22,876 nt of DNA from positions 1-22,876 of the IMG/VR virus record IMGVR_UViG_3300009184_000230; one strand, given 5' to 3'. The translations under genes and the position numbers were made by a program. This DNA comes from a virus. The notes under the pieces are model-generated. The model was given only the letters and a program-made list of their open reading frames with translations, was not told where the DNA came from and ran no database searches. Of the stretch, positions 3,154 to 16,910 are shown piece after piece (position 1 is the first letter of the stretch; every line of letters starts with the position of its first letter).

Positions 3154-3599
3154 TGATATGCGAAACCACAGACTTTACATATCCACTACTTGCTGATATT
3201 TACTATCCAATAGTAGAAACTGGGGCTTATGGTAACACAAAGAAGCAATGGATTTTAGATAAAACAGTTGCTTGTTTTTTTAATGTGGCAGGTAGCAAAT
3301 ATAAACAAGATGTTAATACTGAAGCAAACATCAACATAAGTAATTCTATCATTGGCAGACTTAGAAACGACCCAACAATCTCTAGCACGGACACACTATA
3401 TTCTATTACAAATATTGTTATTACTAATATTAGAAGTTCCGATGGATACACAATTTATAACGAGTCTGCTGGACCACGTTCTGGTAGTTCAACACTCTTT
3501 GAAATATCAACAATAAACCCTATAGTTGGTCCTTTTGGAAAGGTAGAATATTACAAAGTCATGCTCAGACGTTCTGAGAATCAGGCGGTAGACCTTTGA
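3153..3599 (+). CDS. Probable head-closure / head-tail joining protein
   Basis: 148 residues; ATG overlaps the preceding stop by one base (TAATG), so translation is probably coupled. The sequence is beta-rich without membrane segments or a signal peptide. It begins with ETTDFTYPLLADIYYPIVET and contains a GNTKKQWILDKTVACFFN stretch, like the small barrel of stopper proteins that take a short description of the form 'A.....G..KK.W......'. It lies between the connector and two tail-completion-like genes, where SPP1 gp16-like head-closure proteins are found. I do not recognise the family with certainty; the call is by position, size and predicted beta content. The next gene starts inside its stop codon. 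Confidence 0.5.
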   Translation: MICETTDFTYPLLADIYYPIVETGAYGNTKKQWILDKTVACFFNVAGSKYKQDVNTEANINISNSIIGRLRNDPTISSTDTLYSITNIVITNIRSSDGYTIYNESAGPRSGSSTLFEISTINPIVGPFGKVEYYKVMLRRSENQAVDL

Positions 3600-5707: not shown

Positions 5708-6418
5708 ATGCCTACAACAATATACGAAACACATGAACTAGAATTAATAGATGGAACTATCTTAGAAATGTCTCCTCTTAAGATTAAATATTTAAAACAA
5801 TTTATGGATAAGTTTGATTTAATTAAGGAATGCAAAACCGATGAAGAGTCTATTTCTGTTCTTGTGGATTGTGTAAGAATATCAATGAAGCAATTTCATC
5901 CAGTGTTAAAAACTATTGAAGATGTAGAAGATAGTATAGACCTTCCAACAATATATAAAATTATTGATATATGTGCTGGAGTAAAGATGAATAAAGAAGC
6001 CCAAGACAAAAATGATGCATCAGAAATAAAACCAGCAAAGAAAGAAAATAGTTGGGATAGTCTGGATTTGGTAAAATTAGAGTCCGAAATTTTTGTGCTC
6101 GGTGCTTGGAAAAACTTTGACGAATTAGAGTCAAGCATATCTATGCCAGAACTAATGGCTATTCTTGAATCAATAAGAGAACTAGACTATAATGAAAAAA
6201 AGTTTCTTGCTGCGATGCAAGGAGTAGACCTAGATGAATCAAAGAATAAGAATGAACCAGACCCTTGGGAGGCAATGAAAGCCAGGGTAGCGGCACAAGT
6301 ATCTGGTATTGGCAATGGAGACCCTAATGACGTTACATCGTTGCAAGGACAAAAAGCACAACAGTATGGCTTCGGTATCGGCATGGGCCTTGAGTACGAA
6401 GTTATTACCAAAGACTAG
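5708..6418 (+). CDS. Tail assembly chaperone, long form
   Basis: 236 residues. The N-terminal ~97 residues are paralogous to the next gene, sharing M-TTI-ET, E-L-DGT, PLKI, FM-KF, MKQ, DLPT-YKI and G-K, which also confirms the start codon despite the absence of an RBS. After a charged linker (residues ~98-115) comes a C-terminal domain with LGAWKNFDELESSISMPELM, FLAAMQGVDLDE, DPWEAMKARVAAQVSG, GDPNDVTSLQGQKA and GFGIGMGLEYE. Such a pair of domains corresponds to the long product (gpGT-like) of siphovirus tail chaperone genes, which binds the tape measure and recruits tube protein and is not part of the finished tail. Here it is encoded in one unbroken frame. I see no canonical slippery heptamer at the domain boundary. 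The gene is probably translated from a leaderless message. Confidence 0.8.
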   Translation: MPTTIYETHELELIDGTILEMSPLKIKYLKQFMDKFDLIKECKTDEESISVLVDCVRISMKQFHPVLKTIEDVEDSIDLPTIYKIIDICAGVKMNKEAQDKNDASEIKPAKKENSWDSLDLVKLESEIFVLGAWKNFDELESSISMPELMAILESIRELDYNEKKFLAAMQGVDLDESKNKNEPDPWEAMKARVAAQVSGIGNGDPNDVTSLQGQKAQQYGFGIGMGLEYEVITKD

Positions 6419-6459: not shown

Positions 6460-6783
6460 ATGTCTACAACTATTAATGAAACTAAAACAGTAGAACTATT
6501 GGACGGAACAAAAATTAGCGTTCGTCCACTAAAAATCTCTCTTCTTCGCCCTTTTATGACAAAGTTTGAGGGTATCGCAGAAGTAGCAGATAACAACGAG
6601 AAGTCAATGACTCTTCTCATGGAGTGTGTACAAATTGCTATGAAGCAGTACGCTCCAGAACATGCCACAGACCTAAAGGCTCTAGAAGAACTTCTAGACC
6701 TTCCTACAGTATACAAGATTGTCGAAGAGGCATCTGGTATTAAACTTAGCGAGGCTTCGCTAATGGGTGGTCTAATCGGCTAA
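6460..6783 (+). CDS. Tail assembly chaperone, short form (paralogue of the upstream gene)
   Basis: 107 residues with a strong RBS. Nearly the whole protein aligns with residues 1-97 of the preceding gene; by eye roughly 40 of 97 aligned positions are identical, with two single-residue gaps. It ends shortly after the shared domain (KLSEASLMGGLIG) and lacks the C-terminal domain, so it corresponds to the short product (gpG-like) of a tail chaperone gene. In lambda-like phages short and long forms come from one gene by ribosomal frameshifting and the short form is in excess. Here they appear to be two genes, and the short one has the stronger translation signals. It is followed by an 17-base gap and the tape measure gene, as expected for this family. 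Confidence 0.8.
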   Translation: MSTTINETKTVELLDGTKISVRPLKISLLRPFMTKFEGIAEVADNNEKSMTLLMECVQIAMKQYAPEHATDLKALEELLDLPTVYKIVEEASGIKLSEASLMGGLIG

Positions 6784-6800: not shown

Positions 6801-9800
6801 ATGGCTGATATCGAATCAAATATAAAAGTTAATATAGATACGTCAGATGCTCTGTCGCAACTAAAACTTTTACAACAGCAGATATCAGCCTTCCAACAGG
6901 CAATGAAAAATGCTGGAGCACAAAATGCTTCAGCCGCTGTTCAAATGCAGCAAAACTTGATGACATCCATCAATGCTACTGGCAAGTTTTCTGCAAATAT
7001 ACAAACAATTAAAACAAGTGCGGAATCTTTTACAGAGTCCCTCGAAAAGAACAAACTATCTATAGGTCAATACTTTAGGTATGCTGGTGGTGCATCTAAA
7101 ACTTTTGGAAAACTGTTCAAATCTGAATTTGAAACTATTCAGCAAGTAGCAGTAGACAGAGTAAAGACTATACAGACCCAGTATATTAAACTTGGTCGTG
7201 ATGCTTCTGGAGCAATGAAAGCAATTGCTGTTAGACCACTTGCTCTCGATATGGATAATTTGGGAACAAAAACCCAAATAGCGGCACAGAAACAGCAACT
7301 CTTTAACCAGTTGATGAAGCAAGGCTCTACACAACTTCTAAACTTTGGTAAGAACACTCAGTGGGCTGGTCGCCAACTTATGGTTGGTTTTACTATTCCA
7401 CTTACATTAATGGGTCAGGCAGCAGCCCAAGCCTATATGAAGATTGAAGCAGCATCTCTAAAGTTTAGGCGTGTTTATGGAGACATGAATACAACAACAG
7501 AAGAAACCAATAAAATGGTTAAATCTGTTCAAGCACTTGCAAATGAGTTTACAAAATATGGTATTGCTGTTGCAGATACCATGGACATGGCTGCTCAAGC
7601 AGCGGCTATGGGTAAAACAGGCACTGACCTTATGCAACAGGTTGCTCAGGCATCAAAACTTTCGGTACTTGGTCAAGTAGAGCAACAGCAAGCATTAGAA
7701 ACAACCATTAGCCTTACAAACGCTTTTGGTATATCTACAGATGAACTAGCAAAAAGCGTAGACTTCCTTAACGCAGTAGAAAACCAAACTGTTGTTAGCA
7801 TCGAAGACCTTACAATTGCTATTCCAAAAGCAGCCCCAGTAGTTAAACAACTTGGTGGAGATGTCGAAGACCTAACATTCTTCCTGACAGCAATGAAGGA
7901 AGGTGGCATTAACGCATCTGAAGGTGCTAACGCACTTAAGTCTGGTCTTGCATCTATGATTAATCCAACTAAAAAGGCTTCGGACTTTTTGGCACAATTT
8001 GGAGTCAACATTAAAGCAATTGTTGAGGGAAACAAGGGAGACATTAAGGGAACAGTTGTTGATTTTGCTAAGGCACTGGACACATTAGACCCACTAAATC
8101 GTGCTCGTGCAATTGAACAGATGTTTGGTAAATTCCAATTCTCTCGTCTATCTACACTATTCAAGAACGTAATTGATGAGGGTAGCCAAGCAGCCACGGT
8201 AGCAGGTCTTGCAAATCAAACAGCAGAAGAACTTGCAGTATTGTCAGAACGAGAAATGAGTAAAATCTCAGACTCTCCTATGTTTAAATTTCAAAAATCT
8301 ATTCAAGATATGCAAACCAAACTTGCTCCAGTTGGAGAAGCATTCCTAAAGGCTGTAACTCCAATTATTGAATTTGTGACAAAGATTTTAGATGGCTTCA
8401 ACAATCTTAGTGAAGGAACAAAATCTTTTGTTTCTATATTAGTTTTGGCTGTTGCTGGTATTGGTCCTGCATTGCTAATGACATTTGGTCTTATTGCTAA
8501 CGGTGTGGCAAACATTATGAAACTCTTTACTAATATGAAGGCTTTCATAAATAAAACTACAAAACCATCCGATGTTCTTGGAGAACAAACTTCTTACATG
8601 AACACAGAGCAGTTAAAGAGTGCTGCTATTGCTGCATCTCTAGACCAGGCTCACGCAAAACTTCGTCAAACATTCACTTCCGAGGCTGCTGCAGTTCAAC
8701 AACTGACAGACGCTTATAGAAATGCTGTACAGGCTCAACAGGCTTATTCTGGTATTCCAGGTATTCCAACAGGAAATCCAAATGCTACACCTAGAAAATA
8801 TGCTAACGGTGTATCTATGGTTCCAGGTCCTTCGGGTGCAGGTGACATTGTTCCAGCACTACTATCTCCAGGTGAAGCAGTTATTCCTGCAAGGTCTGCT
8901 AAAAAGTATGCTCCAGTAATTCGTGGCATGATTGCTGGAAACCTTCCAGGATTTGAGGATGGCACTCCAGGTGCAGGTATGCGTCAAAGCATGATTGGTC
9001 CAATGACCGAAAAACAAATTGAAGGTCTTGCAAGAACAGGAAAAACTCTTAAAGAGATTAGCGATGAAGTTTATGCAGGTCCTTATGGTCAAACTCCACC
9101 AACAAATTATGGCACACAAATCACTCCAAGTGCTGGACATTCTTTCCCTGCATTTGGTGTTGCTGGAGTATATGAAAAACCAGACGGAACAAAAGTATTC
9201 GTTAAGCCACAAATGGACTTAGTTTCTGCAATGGCAGAAATTAGAGGAACAACTATTGCTCGTGACGTACATGGACTTGTAGCACCAAAGCAATCGCTTC
9301 GTGTAATGATGGACCCAACAGACCCAGAAGACAAGAGAAAATTCTTAGTTCTTGAGTCAGCATTGGACGAGAGACTTGCTAATGTTCCAACAGAATTTAC
9401 TAAAGACCAATACTTTAAACAACTTGTTGCGTCTCTTCTTCGTGGAGATAAAGACCTTGGTGTTGGAAACCTTGGAGGAAACGTCCTTGCTGACGTTGGT
9501 CCTGCTGGGGTATTCCAAAGAGCATCTGGTAAACGTGCTCTTGGTAGCCAAATTAACTCTATGGAAGAACAAGCAATCATTAATCTTCTTGGCGTAAAGG
9601 GTGGTGCTAAGAGATTCTTTGCTGAGGCAACATCAGATATTGCTAAGAGTATGACCCCTGCTGAATATGATGCAGCAATCAAGGCAGAGATTCAGGCAGT
9701 TGCTCCAAGACTTCAGGCTACAATTGCTGGATTTGGAAATCTTAACCCAGAAGAAAAGGCAGCATACATGGCTATGCAGCAAAGACTTCAGGCAGGTATG

Positions 9801-12800
9801 GGGGTTGACTGGGCTAAGTATCAGGTCATGCATTCGAAAGTGCCTACAAAGAAACTTGCTGAAGGTGGATTTGTTGGCATTGAAAATAGTCAGTCATTTG
9901 CTCAAAGTTTGATGAGCATGTCTAGTGATGAGATAAAGAAACAACTTAATATCAATGACACTCACTTAGTTACTCCAATAGATTTAACCAAGAATCCACA
10001 AGTTCTTAAACAGATTACAGATATACTTCCAGGAGTAACTAAAGAAGAACTTCGTGGTTTTGAACCAGTATCTAATTTGACAGCCCAACTTCCAGCAAAC
10101 ATGAATCAGAAGATGAAGACTAGTGGTTATCCTTCATCAACATTTAGTTCAATTTGGAATGGTTTTGTTGGCAAACTATCGAAGAGTGCAACTATTGCTG
10201 GAATTGATTTGCCAAGTTCTCAAATAATTGAAGATGAATTGGGTACACAAATTGCTGCTGCTGGCGGAAATATAACTGATGGAACAATTAATGACATCAT
10301 TGGAAATGTTCTTGGAAAATCTTCAAAAGTAACTGACATAAATGAAAGTAAACAAAAACTATATAGTTTAGCACTTAAGGTTGCACAACTTAGAAGCAAA
10401 CCAAAACAATTAAGCCAATCAGGTAATGATTCAATTCATTCAATTGTTCTTAGAATGATAAGGGATGGCTCTGCACAATTTAATGATAACGGAACAAGTA
10501 TTGTTAGAACTATTGGACAAGGAAATGTTACAAGATTTGGAACCTGGGAATTTGAAGGTATTGGAACTGGCAAAGAAGAAGGAACAATAGAACAAAAAGA
10601 AATACGCAGAAGAGCACAAGAAGCAGCATATGGTTCTACTGGCTGGGCATCACTAAGAAATTGGAATGCCCCTATGCCAACAGTAAATCGAGAACTTGTT
10701 AAACCTAAAGACTGGGCGGAAGTAACTAATCCTGCAACCTGGAATAGAATGACTAAAGAACAGCAGAGACAATATCTTTCTACAATACAAGGAACTAAAC
10801 CAACAACTCTTGGATTTAGAAAGCAAGACTATGAACAAGGTTTTGGAGATAACAAGGGTCCTGCATCAGGATGGACATACGATTCTAGTAAACTAAAGGC
10901 TGGAATTAAATGGAGAAATTCCGAACAAGCCATGCAAATGGGATACAACGAAATGGCTGCAAATGGAATTATCCCATCAGCAGGACAAGCATTCTTTAAT
11001 AAGTTAGCCCTAGGTAAAGAACCTGTAAGAATGGCTGAGGGTGGCATTGTTCCAGGTGGAATGGGTAAGCCTAAAGCATCCGTATTTGACGTAGACGATA
11101 CACTGCTTGACCTAGCATCGTTCATGCCAGCACACCAAGAAAGAAATGCAAAACTACCTAAAGAACAAAGACTTAATTGGTGGGAAGAAGTAGCCAAAGA
11201 CCCTAAAGGTATTCCTGCTGCTATTCAAAGACTAAAAGATGCTCAGATGCGTGGTAATAAGATTCTTCTTATGACTGCAAGACCAAAGACTTATGATGCT
11301 GTTACATTGGATACCCTGCAAAAACTGGGTATTGATACTAAGGGTGTCAAACTAATTTCTAGAGAAAATAAAGATTATCGTAAACCAGAACAGATGAAGT
11401 ATGACAAAACTTCTAAGTATATGCAATGGTATGACATTGAAGAGTTCTATGACGATATGGCTAAGACTCGTGGTGCTGTAAGTCTTCTAGGTATTAATAC
11501 TATTAATCCTCTTAAACTTGCTAAGGGTGGTGTTGTTCCTGGATATGCTAAGGGTACTCCAAGAGTTTTAGATACTATCGAGCAAAAGTTCCCAGGAATG
11601 TTTACTCAACTTCCTAAATCAAGGATGATGCAGTATAGTGAAGGTGCAACTAAGCCAGAGGCAAATAAAAAAGTTTTCACATCTTCAAGATTAAAGAGTT
11701 TTAAGTTTGAAGATTGGAACAGAACATATGACTTAGACGAACTAGCACAAATCGCTACAATGATAACTCAGGGTGAGTTTAGTGGTATAGGAAAGTCTGT
11801 ATATAGTAAAAAAACTGGTAAATATAAGAGAATTGGTGTTCCTACCTTCGATGATTTGCTTGTAAATGGAAAACCTATTTTGCAAGAACTTCCAGGGTAT
11901 CAAAAATATTCTTTAGGATATGAAGGAGAAGAAGTATACGCTGGAATTGCTAGAAATAAAATAGCAATGCTACAGTCTCTTCAAGACTGGATTTATCAAG
12001 ATGACTGGGGTAAAGAAGCAAGTGAATTTACTGTAAATGGAATACCTGCAAAAACTTTCTTTAAAGGATTATCTTTAAACCAATACAGAGTTCCAGGACA
12101 AAAAACAAAATCAAAGCCATACTTTTTTGCTGACGGTGTGTTCTCAGTTCCAGGACCAAAGGGTGCTGGCGATGTAGTTCCTGCTATGCTATCTCCAGGT
12201 GAGGCTGTTATTCCTGCCAAGCAAGCAGCACAGCACCGTCCAATGATTCAGCAAATGATTGCTGGTAATCTTCCAGGATATATTAAAGGAAGTCCAGGGG
12301 TAGGAATAAATTCAGTATTCAGTTCTGAGGTAGCAATGGAATCTGGAAAGCCACTAAATGTTAACATTGTAAAAGATGAAACAGCAAAGTCAGATAAACC
12401 ATTAGAAATACTTCAACCAAATTCAAAAGTGACAATTCTAACTCGTGAGCAAATCGAAGAACAGATGTCTATTGAAGATGAGGTATATAGACAACTTTTG
12501 GAAAAAGAAAAAGAATTAAAATTAAAGCACGTTCTTACTGAAGAGGAAAGAAAGTTGCTAGAGTCAAATAAGCAAATTATGCTTAAAAAAGAAGAAGCGT
12601 TTAAACTTCAAAAGAATGTGACAGAAAAAGAAAAAAGAGGTTTCTTTACAAGAAATGCTACAACTGGAAAAGTTCAGGGTGCGATGTATGGTCTTTCTGC
12701 AGCAGCAGGTCTTGCATCAACTGTGCCAGGTGCTGTAGGGGAAAGTGCACAGCAGATGCTTCCAGTTATTGGTGCTGCTACCGCTGCAATGTCTGTTATT

Positions 12801-15800: not shown

Positions 15801-16910
15801 GCTTTAAAGGCTGCTCAAGATTATGCTACTGCTAAGAAAAATGCAGGGGCATCAATGAGCGATGCTGCTGCAGAAAAGAAATTTGGTGGAAAAAATACTC
15901 CAGAATTTAAAAAATGGAAAGCAAATCAAATAAAACTTGCTAAAGCATTAACAGCAGCACAGGATTATGGTCTTGTCGATAGTTATGGTAACGTTCTTAC
16001 AGCAGACCAAGTTACTAATGCAACTACTTATCAAAAAAATACAATGCTTTCTTCAAAAAGTGGTCAAGCAGATGCAGCAGAATCCTTAAAGGGCATCCCA
16101 GCAGAAATTGCTTCTAGAGCAAAATTGATTAAAAATTCAAATAAAGATTTTGCAGCAGACAAAACAAAACTTGATGAAATGAAGAAAACATTTGAAAAAG
16201 CAGGTGGTATATTGTATATGCTTCCAGGATACTATCAAACATGGTTAAATACCTCAGATGCTTTAAGACCTACAACTCCTTTTGGAAAACTTATTGCAAA
16301 AGGTGCTAAACCAGAAGAACTTATAAATCAAGCAACAAAAATGGCAACGAAGTTTGGTGAAATAGATAATTATAGAAAAGAACTTAGGACTGCTGGGTAC
16401 ACAGAGAGTATGCTTTTCCAGGCTAAACTATTTGATAGTACTGATGGTCGTGATGGACAAACTTTAAAACAAAGTTCTGATTTTGCATCTGGTCAAATGT
16501 TTAATCCACACAAACCCTATACAGGAACAAATATTGGATATGGTAAAAACCAAATACTTCCAGATGCAGAAAACATGCTTAGGTTTGCTAATCAATATTA
16601 TGCTATGGGTGGTATGGTTTATGCAAACAAAGGGCTTAAGGTTGCAGCAAGCAAGTATGCTCTTGGAACAGACACTATTCCAGCCATGCTAACTGCTGGA
16701 GAATTTGTTATGAGGAAATCAGCGGTAGATAGAATTGGCTCAAGAACACTAACCAAAATGAATGATGGAACATCTTCAGGAGATTCAGTGTATAATTATA
16801 GTATTACATTAAACGTCAATTCATCATCTGACTCTAACGACATTGCAGATGCAGTCCTTAGACAGATTAAGAGAATTGATTCACAAAGAATTAGGAGCAG
16901 TGCTATATAA
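6801..16910 (+). CDS. Giant tape measure protein with embedded enzyme-like modules
   Basis: 3,369 residues in one frame; weak RBS GGTG at 6790-6793. Tape measures set tail length and line the tube lumen. Seen in order: N-terminal coiled coil (1-120); TP901-type core (~146-500); hydrophobic segment (~540-577); linker copy A (668-726); insert of about 1,050 residues (727-1776) with four modules; linker copy B (1777-1835); charged coiled coil (~1865-1930); hydrophobic segments (~1961-2018 and ~2212-2275); long helical stretches; a GKGNG/GKGDG repeat (2935-2959); a C-terminal GG-V linker with IPAMLTAGEF (3268-3323); and a C-terminus with SITLNV and DAVLRQIKRIDSQRIR, as in actinophage tape measures. 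It is long for the family, which is usually about 700-2,000 residues. At roughly 1.5 angstrom per residue the whole would span about 500 nm; without the insert about 350 nm. I see no lysozyme or peptidase motif. Its stop overlaps the next start by one base. Confidence 0.93.
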   Translation: MADIESNIKVNIDTSDALSQLKLLQQQISAFQQAMKNAGAQNASAAVQMQQNLMTSINATGKFSANIQTIKTSAESFTESLEKNKLSIGQYFRYAGGASKTFGKLFKSEFETIQQVAVDRVKTIQTQYIKLGRDASGAMKAIAVRPLALDMDNLGTKTQIAAQKQQLFNQLMKQGSTQLLNFGKNTQWAGRQLMVGFTIPLTLMGQAAAQAYMKIEAASLKFRRVYGDMNTTTEETNKMVKSVQALANEFTKYGIAVADTMDMAAQAAAMGKTGTDLMQQVAQASKLSVLGQVEQQQALETTISLTNAFGISTDELAKSVDFLNAVENQTVVSIEDLTIAIPKAAPVVKQLGGDVEDLTFFLTAMKEGGINASEGANALKSGLASMINPTKKASDFLAQFGVNIKAIVEGNKGDIKGTVVDFAKALDTLDPLNRARAIEQMFGKFQFSRLSTLFKNVIDEGSQAATVAGLANQTAEELAVLSEREMSKISDSPMFKFQKSIQDMQTKLAPVGEAFLKAVTPIIEFVTKILDGFNNLSEGTKSFVSILVLAVAGIGPALLMTFGLIANGVANIMKLFTNMKAFINKTTKPSDVLGEQTSYMNTEQLKSAAIAASLDQAHAKLRQTFTSEAAAVQQLTDAYRNAVQAQQAYSGIPGIPTGNPNATPRKYANGVSMVPGPSGAGDIVPALLSPGEAVIPARSAKKYAPVIRGMIAGNLPGFEDGTPGAGMRQSMIGPMTEKQIEGLARTGKTLKEISDEVYAGPYGQTPPTNYGTQITPSAGHSFPAFGVAGVYEKPDGTKVFVKPQMDLVSAMAEIRGTTIARDVHGLVAPKQSLRVMMDPTDPEDKRKFLVLESALDERLANVPTEFTKDQYFKQLVASLLRGDKDLGVGNLGGNVLADVGPAGVFQRASGKRALGSQINSMEEQAIINLLGVKGGAKRFFAEATSDIAKSMTPAEYDAAIKAEIQAVAPRLQATIAGFGNLNPEEKAAYMAMQQRLQAGMGVDWAKYQVMHSKVPTKKLAEGGFVGIENSQSFAQSLMSMSSDEIKKQLNINDTHLVTPIDLTKNPQVLKQITDILPGVTKEELRGFEPVSNLTAQLPANMNQKMKTSGYPSSTFSSIWNGFVGKLSKSATIAGIDLPSSQIIEDELGTQIAAAGGNITDGTINDIIGNVLGKSSKVTDINESKQKLYSLALKVAQLRSKPKQLSQSGNDSIHSIVLRMIRDGSAQFNDNGTSIVRTIGQGNVTRFGTWEFEGIGTGKEEGTIEQKEIRRRAQEAAYGSTGWASLRNWNAPMPTVNRELVKPKDWAEVTNPATWNRMTKEQQRQYLSTIQGTKPTTLGFRKQDYEQGFGDNKGPASGWTYDSSKLKAGIKWRNSEQAMQMGYNEMAANGIIPSAGQAFFNKLALGKEPVRMAEGGIVPGGMGKPKASVFDVDDTLLDLASFMPAHQERNAKLPKEQRLNWWEEVAKDPKGIPAAIQRLKDAQMRGNKILLMTARPKTYDAVTLDTLQKLGIDTKGVKLISRENKDYRKPEQMKYDKTSKYMQWYDIEEFYDDMAKTRGAVSLLGINTINPLKLAKGGVVPGYAKGTPRVLDTIEQKFPGMFTQLPKSRMMQYSEGATKPEANKKVFTSSRLKSFKFEDWNRTYDLDELAQIATMITQGEFSGIGKSVYSKKTGKYKRIGVPTFDDLLVNGKPILQELPGYQKYSLGYEGEEVYAGIARNKIAMLQSLQDWIYQDDWGKEASEFTVNGIPAKTFFKGLSLNQYRVPGQKTKSKPYFFADGVFSVPGPKGAGDVVPAMLSPGEAVIPAKQAAQHRPMIQQMIAGNLPGYIKGSPGVGINSVFSSEVAMESGKPLNVNIVKDETAKSDKPLEILQPNSKVTILTREQIEEQMSIEDEVYRQLLEKEKELKLKHVLTEEERKLLESNKQIMLKKEEAFKLQKNVTEKEKRGFFTRNATTGKVQGAMYGLSAAAGLASTVPGAVGESAQQMLPVIGAATAAMSVIPGYAGMIVGAGAALVTAYMQVQDKLNKIRDEALALGTAMGSSTKSIDKFAEFAKTVTGSQAMDKRRETSAGSFFNVVQGKTTFGESYMKSDAGKELVKSVGAAIKGGGLDQAKAMIVNQLGTAIASGALSPAQARSIASNLGAQLGDMSLGIEVAGKITDLVGPKGEDLKKEPLEIRMRLVAESMEQFKKQAEISNANVNDTAKNAGTSGAGIGLGMGAGAAAGGIALGAASLMGGVASSSAIVAGLATAGSAVPVIGTIIGALVGFSIAAVQLQGDIAKNAGYLQASLGSALSVQQQMVDSLTVDYEKRIQAAKAAGDTAEATRLQNQYLADQAELLQFNKEQTQEMYSILESQGTGLGFMLNAQIANLDTAREGLKKAFEGSGQEVQAKLAQEQIDSMAGSATQKTMLMSAVAQKQIGLNQIGVAKTAFGADQAGADTLQTLMENSPTELNRTLGLAGNMGAVEQKKFVLDMSLKDPIEAKVMNDAVELAQKTTGVFFGEKKTAEAIMKFAVENPEKMLEFQQNVAELKDVDGAKFDITVAQKILGPDLAKALGEKSVGAYFKKYNKQNKVVFLSEFQQVMTMLQEGDKDMIDSYNAWNASNGMKKTYADYAAWQSDRTVTTQGVDNTKAPGEDGGTGEKAGPQASILDQFVQMARETSNFQQKLTTGWDASLAALKRYTITSINLLAGWAVRLKQQGVSANMIDVFMGATEEEQDKIINKRTGALLPGALDLLRKLQIIKDKKEFGLSYVLASPTERLAKDNGLYQAGLDVIANKEKKINEKYDKRIKALDQIGKIQEKNNQRQQDTLTIADALSKGDIAAAARAALTAKQNSQRLALEDAKESTELARKTELEAITVKILGETQTRSDLEAIIATNTEKIAANKLVEMNRQITIGRNAVIAAEQSAILLANSTLISKLPGANGGGSSTGSGKGNGGKGNGGKGDGGKGDGGKGDKGGNNANDTDSKPTGVVGNIASSVQGKAFTAAIKGAQDVTPGALKAAQDYATAKKNAGASMSDAAAEKKFGGKNTPEFKKWKANQIKLAKALTAAQDYGLVDSYGNVLTADQVTNATTYQKNTMLSSKSGQADAAESLKGIPAEIASRAKLIKNSNKDFAADKTKLDEMKKTFEKAGGILYMLPGYYQTWLNTSDALRPTTPFGKLIAKGAKPEELINQATKMATKFGEIDNYRKELRTAGYTESMLFQAKLFDSTDGRDGQTLKQSSDFASGQMFNPHKPYTGTNIGYGKNQILPDAENMLRFANQYYAMGGMVYANKGLKVAASKYALGTDTIPAMLTAGEFVMRKSAVDRIGSRTLTKMNDGTSSGDSVYNYSITLNVNSSSDSNDIADAVLRQIKRIDSQRIRSSAI
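7236..8300 (+). other. TP901-type tape measure core domain
   Basis: Residues ~146-500 carry the recognisable core of phage minor-tail/tape measure proteins: WAGRQLMVGFTIPLTLMGQA, AAQAAAMGKTGTDLMQQVAQ, TNAFGISTDELAKSVDFLNA, then FFLTAMKEGGINASEGANAL and RARAIEQMFGKFQFSRLSTL. This identifies the gene product regardless of the unusual insert downstream. Confidence 0.85.
8802..8978 (+). repeat. Linker repeat copy A in the tape measure
   Basis: Residues 668-726: ANGVSMVPGPSGAGDIVPAL, then LSPGEAVIPA, later IAGNLPG and TPGAG. Aligns without gaps to residues 1777-1835, 39 of 59 positions identical by my count. The G-GD-VPA-LSPGEAVIPA core is a known tape measure linker type (usually seen once, near the C-terminus). 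Confidence 0.85.
9123..9836 (+). other. Kinase-like domain embedded in the tape measure (module 1)
   Basis: Residues ~775-1012. A beta-hairpin with GVYEKPDGTKVFVKP places a lysine (K802) on a strand, followed 11 residues on by E813 in a helix (SAMAEIRGTTIARDV). A hinge-like FLVLESALDE follows (848-857), then a loop with R-GDKDLGVGNLGGNVLAD (D883, D885, N890, N894) and D898. Lys, Glu, Asp, Asn and Asp in this order and spacing match the ATP-binding and catalytic residues of kinase-fold enzymes of the PI3/4-kinase or HipA-like type, where the catalytic loop reads GD-x-x-x-x-x-N. Inference only; substrate unknown. The glycine-rich loop is weak, so it might be inactive or a different fold. Confidence 0.4.
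9879..11024 (+). other. Unrecognised module 2 in the tape measure insert
   Basis: Residues ~1027-1408, bounded by the short linkers AEGGFVG (1020-1026) and AEGGIVPGG (1412-1420). The first half is helical with many Asn, Ile and Ser; the second half is rich in Trp, Arg, Gln and Gly (GWASLRNWN, DWAEVTNPATWNRM, GWTYDSSKLKAGIKWRN). It does not resemble tape-measure sequence and I recognise no family. Codons are more AT-rich than in module 1. Confidence 0.5.
11073..11510 (+). other. HAD-superfamily phosphatase-like domain embedded in the tape measure (module 3)
   Basis: Residues ~1425-1570. Motif I is FDVDDTLLD with nucleophile D1430 and acid/base D1432. Motif II is KILLMTARP with T1492. Lysines K1533, K1536 and K1539 are candidates for motif III, and motif IV is EEFYDD with D1551 and D1552. 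All residues needed for HAD chemistry are in the right order within about 145 residues. A helix carrying IPAAIQRLKDAQMRGNKI precedes motif II, as in the polynucleotide 3'-phosphatase of T4 Pnkp and acid-phosphatase-like HADs. Expected activity is phosphomonoester hydrolysis with Mg2+; the substrate is unknown. Bounded by GG-V linkers on both sides. Confidence 0.8.
11562..12128 (+). other. Unrecognised module 4 in the tape measure insert
   Basis: Residues ~1588-1776, between linker AKGGVVPGYAKGTP (1574-1587) and linker copy B. Mixed alpha/beta, rich in Tyr, Lys, Phe and Trp (LKSFKFEDWNRTYDLDELAQ; LPGYQKYSLGYEGEEVYAG; SLQDWIYQDDWGKEASEF). No family recognised and no catalytic motif seen. Confidence 0.5.
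12129..12305 (+). repeat. Linker repeat copy B in the tape measure
   Basis: Residues 1777-1835: ADGVFSVPGPKGAGDVVPAM, then LSPGEAVIPA, IAGNLPG and SPGVG. Second copy of the 59-residue linker at 668-726. It closes the roughly 1,050-residue insert, after which coiled-coil and hydrophobic tape-measure-like sequence resumes. Confidence 0.85.
12681..12854 (+). other. Hydrophobic segment in the tape measure
   Basis: Residues ~1961-2018 are almost free of charges and rich in Ala, Gly, Val, Ile and Met (GLSAAAGLASTVPGA; GYAGMIVGAGAALVTAYM). Possible membrane-inserting hairpin used during DNA ejection, as known for other tape measures. Confidence 0.55.
13440..13620 (+). other. Second Gly/Ala-rich hydrophobic segment in the tape measure
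   Basis: Residues ~2214-2274: GLGMGAGAAAGGIALGAASL, then VAGLATAGSAVPVIGTIIGA and LVGFSIAAV. Long enough for two membrane spans. Confidence 0.55.
15603..15677 (+). repeat. 15-bp in-frame tandem repeat, five copies
   Basis: Units GGAAAAGGCAATGGT (two copies), GGAAAAGGTGATGGT (two copies) and a final variant ending GATAAG encode GKGNG, GKGNG, GKGDG, GKGDG, GKGDK (residues 2935-2959). It lies in a Gly/Ser/Asn-rich hinge between helical regions and is likely a flexible, slippage-prone spacer. Confidence 0.95.
16602..16769 (+). other. C-terminal tape measure linker related to the internal repeats
   Basis: Residues 3268-3323: AMGGMVYANKG, GTDTIPAMLTAGEFVMRKSA, then RIGSRTLTKMNDG. This is the usual C-terminal tape measure motif and a distant relative of linker copies A and B (D-x-x-PA-L-x-x-GE). 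Confidence 0.75.

Follow-up and report, generated by a model that had tools for sequence, protein, structure and literature searches.

To our knowledge, long flexible-tailed phages are seldom regarded as injecting sets of effector enzymes. Mycobacteriophage TM4 is reportedly among those whose tape measure proteins (TMPs) carry peptidoglycan-hydrolase motifs. TMPs are thought to exit the tail at infection and to aid DNA entry, and in Thermus phage P23-45 the protein gp96 is an RNA polymerase fused to a TMP, active and present in virions, which its authors propose acts at the entry pore during DNA entry (PMC10770324). Two further descriptions concern actinobacterial contractile injection systems: the Tme effectors, which are related to tape measures and bear functional domains (PMC11126660), and the tape-measure-related effector Sle1 (PMC13277306). 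Here we analyze a 22,876-nucleotide stretch of viral DNA (IMG/VR record IMGVR_UViG_3300009184_000230), which as a whole we call the window. Our main reading, to which we assign a probability of about 0.6, is that its TMP carries a genuine and probably active HAD phosphomonoesterase as a plug-in cargo module, with catalysis and ejection being inferences.

By its profile matches and its tail-gene neighborhood, the 3369-residue protein of the window (Table 1) is identified as a siphophage tape measure protein. Its frame matches Pfam PF10145 (E 7.1e-28), the NCBIfam model TIGR01760 (1.8e-32), and PHROG 10030 (1.3e-99), together with other PHROG TMP families. Annotation by eye places capsid, head-tail, tail-tube, and chaperone genes 5' of this frame and tail-tip-like ORFs 3' of it. 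The two similar small ORFs that lie in tandem on the 5' side (5708-6418 and 6460-6783, plus strand) look like duplicated tail assembly chaperones. The GC content of the window is ~0.32 to 0.46. WhiB, an actinobacterial family that in our control set matches only Corynebacterium, occurs in 11 of 14 related records, a distribution that points to actinobacterial hosts. Scanning with the N-terminal block of the TMP identified at least 596 relatives (the best 80 were retained), and the best isolated relatives of this N terminus are Streptomyces phages. Streptomyces phage Yaboi, only distantly related (31% identity over the N-terminal block), has a TMP of 2093 residues that lacks both the HAD domain and a linker near the corresponding place.

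Table 1. Positions in the window of the tape measure gene and the elements discussed here
Feature	Residues	Position	Strand	Basis
Giant TMP, 3369 aa		6801..16910	+	ORF; PF10145, TIGR01760, and PHROG TMP families; neighborhood
Linker 1 (...VPGPSGAGDIVPALLSPGEAVIPA...), left border of slot	664-729	8790..8987	+	Linker HMM, 101 bits
Kinase-fold module (predicted)	745-1025	9033..9875	+	AlphaFold; VIA; invariant residues
Further slot modules	~1026-1420	9876..11061	+	No Pfam over cut-off; patchy in relatives
HAD phosphatase module (predicted)	1425-1570	11073..11510	+	PF03767; structure; conservation; dN/dS
Module D	~1577-1760	11529..12080	+	Repeated in L021 and L020; no Pfam match
Linker 2, right border of slot	1775-1835	12123..12305	+	Linker HMM, 97 bits
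Third linker-like copy near C terminus	3290-3333	16668..16799	+	Linker HMM, 29 bits

A sequence-only reading of this DNA had claimed a HAD phosphatase active site within a tail protein, with the four HAD motifs in order and D1430, D1432, T1492, lysines at 1533-1539, and D1551/D1552 as their residues. The claim is borne out, well above chance level, by PF03767, the AlphaFold model, and the TMP profiles, and both the numbering and the residues, K1533 among them, hold. The 146 residues from 1425 to 1570 of the 3369-residue frame run without stops and contain all of these positions along with R1494. A whole-protein scan matched residues 1419-1542 to PF03767, Acid_phosphat_B (HAD subfamily IIIB), at 57.6 bits (E 1.7e-15) against a curated cut-off of 27 bits, and PHROG 415 ("polynucleotide kinase") matches residues 1421-1568 (E 5.4e-10). 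Weaker Pfam matches include HAD_PNKP (PF25109, 15.2 bits against a cut-off of 27.6), LNS2 (LNS2_PITM1-3, E 0.0026, also below cut-off), and other HAD families. The acid phosphatase equivalogs also remain below their cut-offs (TIGR01675, 35.5 of 264.3 bits; TIGR01533, 30.5 of 216.05 bits; TIGR01672, 25 of 195.8 bits).

The HAD domain turned up in 17 further IMG/VR contigs when viral contigs were scanned twice (15 in the first scan, then 17 including those 15), and in all 15 loci of the first scan it lies inside a frame of 1471 to 4062 residues. Domain and TMP share one frame in 15/15 loci, which meets our criterion for a fusion of the P23-45 type. An assembly artefact was rejected because the identical fusion is repeated across many contigs. 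The 18 records, window included, were reduced by two duplicates and by one that ends within the domain, leaving the 15 distinct sequences of alignment A4. Each of D1430, D1432, T1434, T1492, R1494, K1533, D1551, and D1552 is invariant across A4, and HAD motifs I to IV (DxD, T/S, K, DD) occur in the right order in every member; loss of D1430, D1432, or T1492 in relatives, which would have refuted the earlier claim, was not seen. The dN/dS of the domain has a median of 0.14 and a maximum of 0.24 (60 usable pairs, 12 sequences), and by this estimate the domain is under strong purifying selection. A tblastn search of 50,697 phage records with the HAD domain gave no match, that is, no relative in an isolated phage, and of the 166 pattern matches returned when the HAD alignment was scanned against bacterial and archaeal genomes, none was a relative.

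Residues 1425-1570 are predicted to adopt the HAD Rossmann-like fold. The AlphaFold model, built with A4 as input, has a pLDDT of 92.8 and a pTM of 0.86, and the T4 Pnkp 3'-phosphatase is its top match both in Foldseek (E 2.6e-7) and in VIA-align (Z 18.2, rmsd 1.9, 132 residues). Other Pnkp structures score Z ~17, followed by Nir2 LNS2 (15.5), a plant vegetative storage protein (14.5), lipin (12.2), and acid phosphatases (11 to 12); among the matches listed, the top rows are HAD proteins. The likeness to both Pnkp 3'-phosphatases and acid phosphatases that had been read from the letters is reproduced, the former as the top structural match and the latter as the top sequence match. Class B/C acid phosphatases (PF03767) resemble the module in this over-cut-off profile match, whereas it falls far below the specific NCBIfam cut-offs for such enzymes and is part of a TMP, not a secreted enzyme. 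Because acid phosphatases are closer in sequence and Pnkp is closer in fold, we claim a HAD phosphatase without a fixed substrate.

The active-site comparison pairs the catalytic residues with those of T4 Pnkp, and it is here that the question of nucleic-acid ends must be weighed. In the alignment with T4 PseT, D1430 pairs with D165, D1432 with D167, R1494 with R213, K1533 with K258, and D1551 and D1552 with D277 and D278; T1492 is aligned at S211, and the motif D-x-R-K-x(4)-K is common to both proteins. A Pnkp-type 3'-phosphatase could repair nucleic-acid ends by clearing 3'-phosphates, either from the genome as it enters or from RNAs that host defense nucleases have cleaved. Besides the closest fold and the shared motif, this reading can draw on the "polynucleotide kinase" matches of PHROG 415/505 and on a free-standing HAD_PNKP protein in a related phage record (L126:4920-5366). 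The score of the module itself against HAD_PNKP, however, is below cut-off. T4 Pnkp R176 and D254, which are essential substrate residues, have no aligned counterpart in the module, with the alignment uncertain around R176, and P1529 occupies the position of D254 in 15/15 sequences. Unlike T4 Pnkp, the module is embedded in a tail protein, and Pfam found no P-loop polynucleotide kinase family in the TMP. The sequence-only reading had named nucleic-acid ends as a possible target; because no counterpart of the R176 and D254 contacts is seen in the alignment, such ends remain just one option, and we regard end repair as unlikely without setting it aside.

A second predicted enzyme fold lies upstream in the same protein. 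The AlphaFold model of residues 745-1025 (46 sequences) has a pLDDT of 90.7, and nearly all of the 50 rows listed by VIA are kinase-fold proteins, the best being CotH (Z 11.9), followed by CtkA, MavQ, PI4K, and later HipA; LepB of Legionella is one row not named as a kinase. The putative catalytic residues K802, E813, D885, N890, and D898 are invariant in 46/46 sequences. Protein kinases have their Asp and Asn five residues apart, and the spacing of D885 and N890 matches this. Foldseek support is weak (best E 5.5e-3), no Pfam family scores over cut-off, the alignment retrieved only chance-level rows from PDB sequences, so that the kinase is seen by fold comparison only, and tblastn against the 50,697 phage records found no match to the module. 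Subject to that weak Foldseek result, the model meets the description of a kinase fold with a putative Lys/Glu/Asp/Asn/Asp set.

Kinase-fold and HAD modules might work as a pair on one target and so constitute a phospho-switch for a protein or lipid of the host or the phage. Of 60 complete TMPs, 37 carry the kinase module and 10 the HAD domain; each of the 10 HAD-bearing proteins also has the kinase module, and both active sites are invariant in their alignments. The resemblance of the kinase model to CotH, CtkA, PI4K, and HipA, and of the HAD model to the lipid-related LNS2 and lipin, would suit such a switch. We nevertheless consider the pairing improbable: the kinase module stands without the HAD domain in 27 of the 37 TMPs that carry it, and the co-occurrence is confounded by common ancestry.

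The comparison of relatives takes the analysis beyond the earlier claims, in that the HAD domain belongs to a group of modules that can replace one another. Judged from sequence, it occupies a slot with a copy of a ~60-residue linker at either end, the linker consensus being VPGPxGAGDxVPAxLSPGEAVIPA... The two copies in the window share 69% DNA identity over 180 bp. The first linker lies at residue 555 to 680 in 60/60 complete TMP ORFs, a full linker immediately follows the HAD domain in 6/14 cases, and short GG-VPG linker fragments flank modules within the slot. Pfam found nothing over cut-off in the window's other slot modules (residues ~1026-1420 and module D); the former are kept in some relatives and missing from others.

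Slot modules with kinase-fold, HAD, cytidylyltransferase-like, GNAT-like, and other identities have been gained, lost, and shuffled. In the N-terminal tree L039 branches within the HAD clade (its exact placement there has low support, 0.053); in this TMP, unrelated sequence replaces the HAD domain between flanks that are kept, namely window residues 1-1133 (74% identity) and 1773-2903 (55%). Conversely, L032 has the HAD domain on a backbone grouped with the HAD-less L049 and L052 (support 1.0). A cytidylyltransferase-like domain sits exactly between two linkers in L052 and L154 and after the kinase module in L155; in L052 it is recognized by PHROGs only (PHROG 3041, 8.6e-9), Pfam giving nothing over cut-off and a PDB sequence search no match. 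The GNAT-like stretch of L032 scores 18.1 bits as a full match and 23.2 bits as a fragment, against a cut-off of 20.7, and it passes only as a 100-residue fragment that was chosen after the weaker full match had been seen. A regular-expression search of the relatives' TMPs for HxGH nucleotidyltransferase and HExxH motifs returned nothing relevant. Module D occurs once in the window, twice in L020, and three times in L021, and its tripling is evidence of duplication within the slot.

Several further observations concern the contents of these genomes. The three copies of module D in the L021 TMP are at residues 1654-1827, 1910-2081, and 2446-2605. The TMP slot of L111 (6304-7356, plus strand) matches DUF3626 just below cut-off (26.4 versus 27 bits). 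Glycine-zipper profiles match the TMPs of some relatives (A2 members; L049, L088, and L075), and glycine zippers have been linked to the membrane passage of a type VI secretion (T6SS) effector (PMC10240207). In three phages with a HAD-bearing TMP (G001, G004, and G005), another small HAD-like protein is encoded on its own (MIITDIDDT...). Free-standing HAD-like loci are at L136:4194-4538 (minus strand), L134:2840-3262 (plus), and L135:4087-4470 (minus), with glycosyltransferase-like ORFs nearby in L134 and L135 and slightly farther away in L136. The HAD_PNKP protein of L126 (plus strand; 148 residues, E 7.5e-21) belongs to G008, whose TMP lacks the HAD domain, and adjoins glutathione peroxidase- and peroxiredoxin-like ORFs.

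Judged from related sequences, slot size is not what one would expect of an element that sets length. Our length set comprised nine TMPs with at least two linkers and an N-terminal identity of 80% or more, after removal of one duplicate. Their total length is 3374 +/- 374 residues, split into a slot of 1114 +/- 386 and a rest of 2260 +/- 78; total length correlates with the slot at r = 0.98 and with the rest at r = -0.06. In the other 10 of 20 multi-linker TMPs (besides these nine and the duplicate), the rest spans 1340 to 3031 residues, partly because the linkers of several are arranged differently, and since these ten deviate, a constant rest is established for the close group only. The earlier suggestion that the HAD domain has a role in infection and not in tail length is strengthened by these lengths and is not proven. 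They also bear on the possibility that the domain acts in assembly or is purely structural, a spacer or plug whose catalysis is irrelevant or is used before packaging. Fusion to a structural protein and the highly variable slot content are what one would expect of such a part, but the size of the slot is not that of a length-setting element, the catalytic residues are all invariant, and purifying selection is strong, so we rate this possibility lower still than a kinase-phosphatase pair. Nir2 LNS2 (Z 15.5) and the sub-cut-off LNS2_PITM1-3 match could suggest that the module derives from HAD enzymes but, in the manner of LNS2-type domains, only binds phosphate or lipid and turns nothing over; this is very improbable, since such binding-only relatives usually lack the second Asp of motif I and here it is kept in 15/15.

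Computation establishes the fold, an active site that is both complete and invariant, the purifying selection, the linker-bounded slot, and the constant rest in the close group. The most likely interpretation is that the TMP doubles as a delivery vehicle, with catalysis, ejection, and substrate inferred. By analogy, the slot would most likely hold cargo enzymes that reach the cell interior ahead of phage gene expression. The rod part of the TMP would set tail length, and the slot would travel in the tail to be ejected with the TMP and the DNA as infection of an actinobacterial host starts. When folded, a 16-kDa domain has about the width of a tail lumen, and the domain is therefore expected to be staggered or unfolded within the tail. 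Folding after ejection and the place of action are, like the substrate, inferred steps. If the catalytic roles can be taken from HAD enzymes, as we assume, D1430 would be the nucleophile and D1432 the acid/base, T1492 and K1533 would stabilize the phosphate, and D1551/D1552 would hold Mg2+ together with D1430. The domain may then dephosphorylate a host or phage phospho-compound ahead of phage gene expression. For the substrate class we can offer only a tentative, low-confidence ranking, with nucleotides or other small phospho-compounds first and nucleic-acid 3' ends second. Against this main reading stand the tight fit of a folded domain in the tail, the lack of biochemical, virion-proteome, and ejection data, length statistics drawn from nine related TMPs, the failure to find a relative among isolated phages, and the absence of counterparts to T4 Pnkp R176 and D254.

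The other enzyme-like domains in the slots of relatives suggest that, at infection, the tail may act as carrier for a few interchangeable enzymes. A broader reading, on which we consider the odds even, is that these actinophage TMPs are reconfigurable delivery vehicles in which the slot acquires and swaps enzymes that are injected ahead of the genome and modify the host or disarm its defenses in advance of phage gene expression, while the rest alone sets tail length; such cargo would include a kinase, a HAD phosphatase, a cytidylyltransferase, an acetyltransferase, and others. If true, the swappable-slot TMP would add a layer of protein delivery to siphophage infection, could account for the unexpectedly great length of some TMPs, and would serve as a natural scaffold when proteins are to be loaded into tails. 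Tail length would be predicted to track the constant part and not the slot.

Enzymes fused to TMPs are already known; neither a HAD or kinase-fold module in a TMP nor a linker-bounded exchange site in one was found in the open literature, with bioRxiv and most subscription journals outside the scope of the search. The TM4-type TMPs likewise hold an enzymatic motif inside the TMP, but theirs acts on the cell wall and the HAD phosphatase has no such wall substrate. P23-45 gp96 is similarly an enzyme domain in a giant TMP that is patchy among relatives; it differs in being an N-terminal RNA polymerase with demonstrated activity, whereas the window has mid-protein modules in a linker-bounded slot that receives several enzymes, all of them predicted only (PMC10770324). 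Tme and Sle1 share with our locus a TMP-like carrier, exchangeable functional domains, and an association with actinobacteria (PMC11126660, PMC13277306). They are C-terminal effectors of genome-free bacterial particles, whereas the window encodes a phage TMP whose modules are internal.
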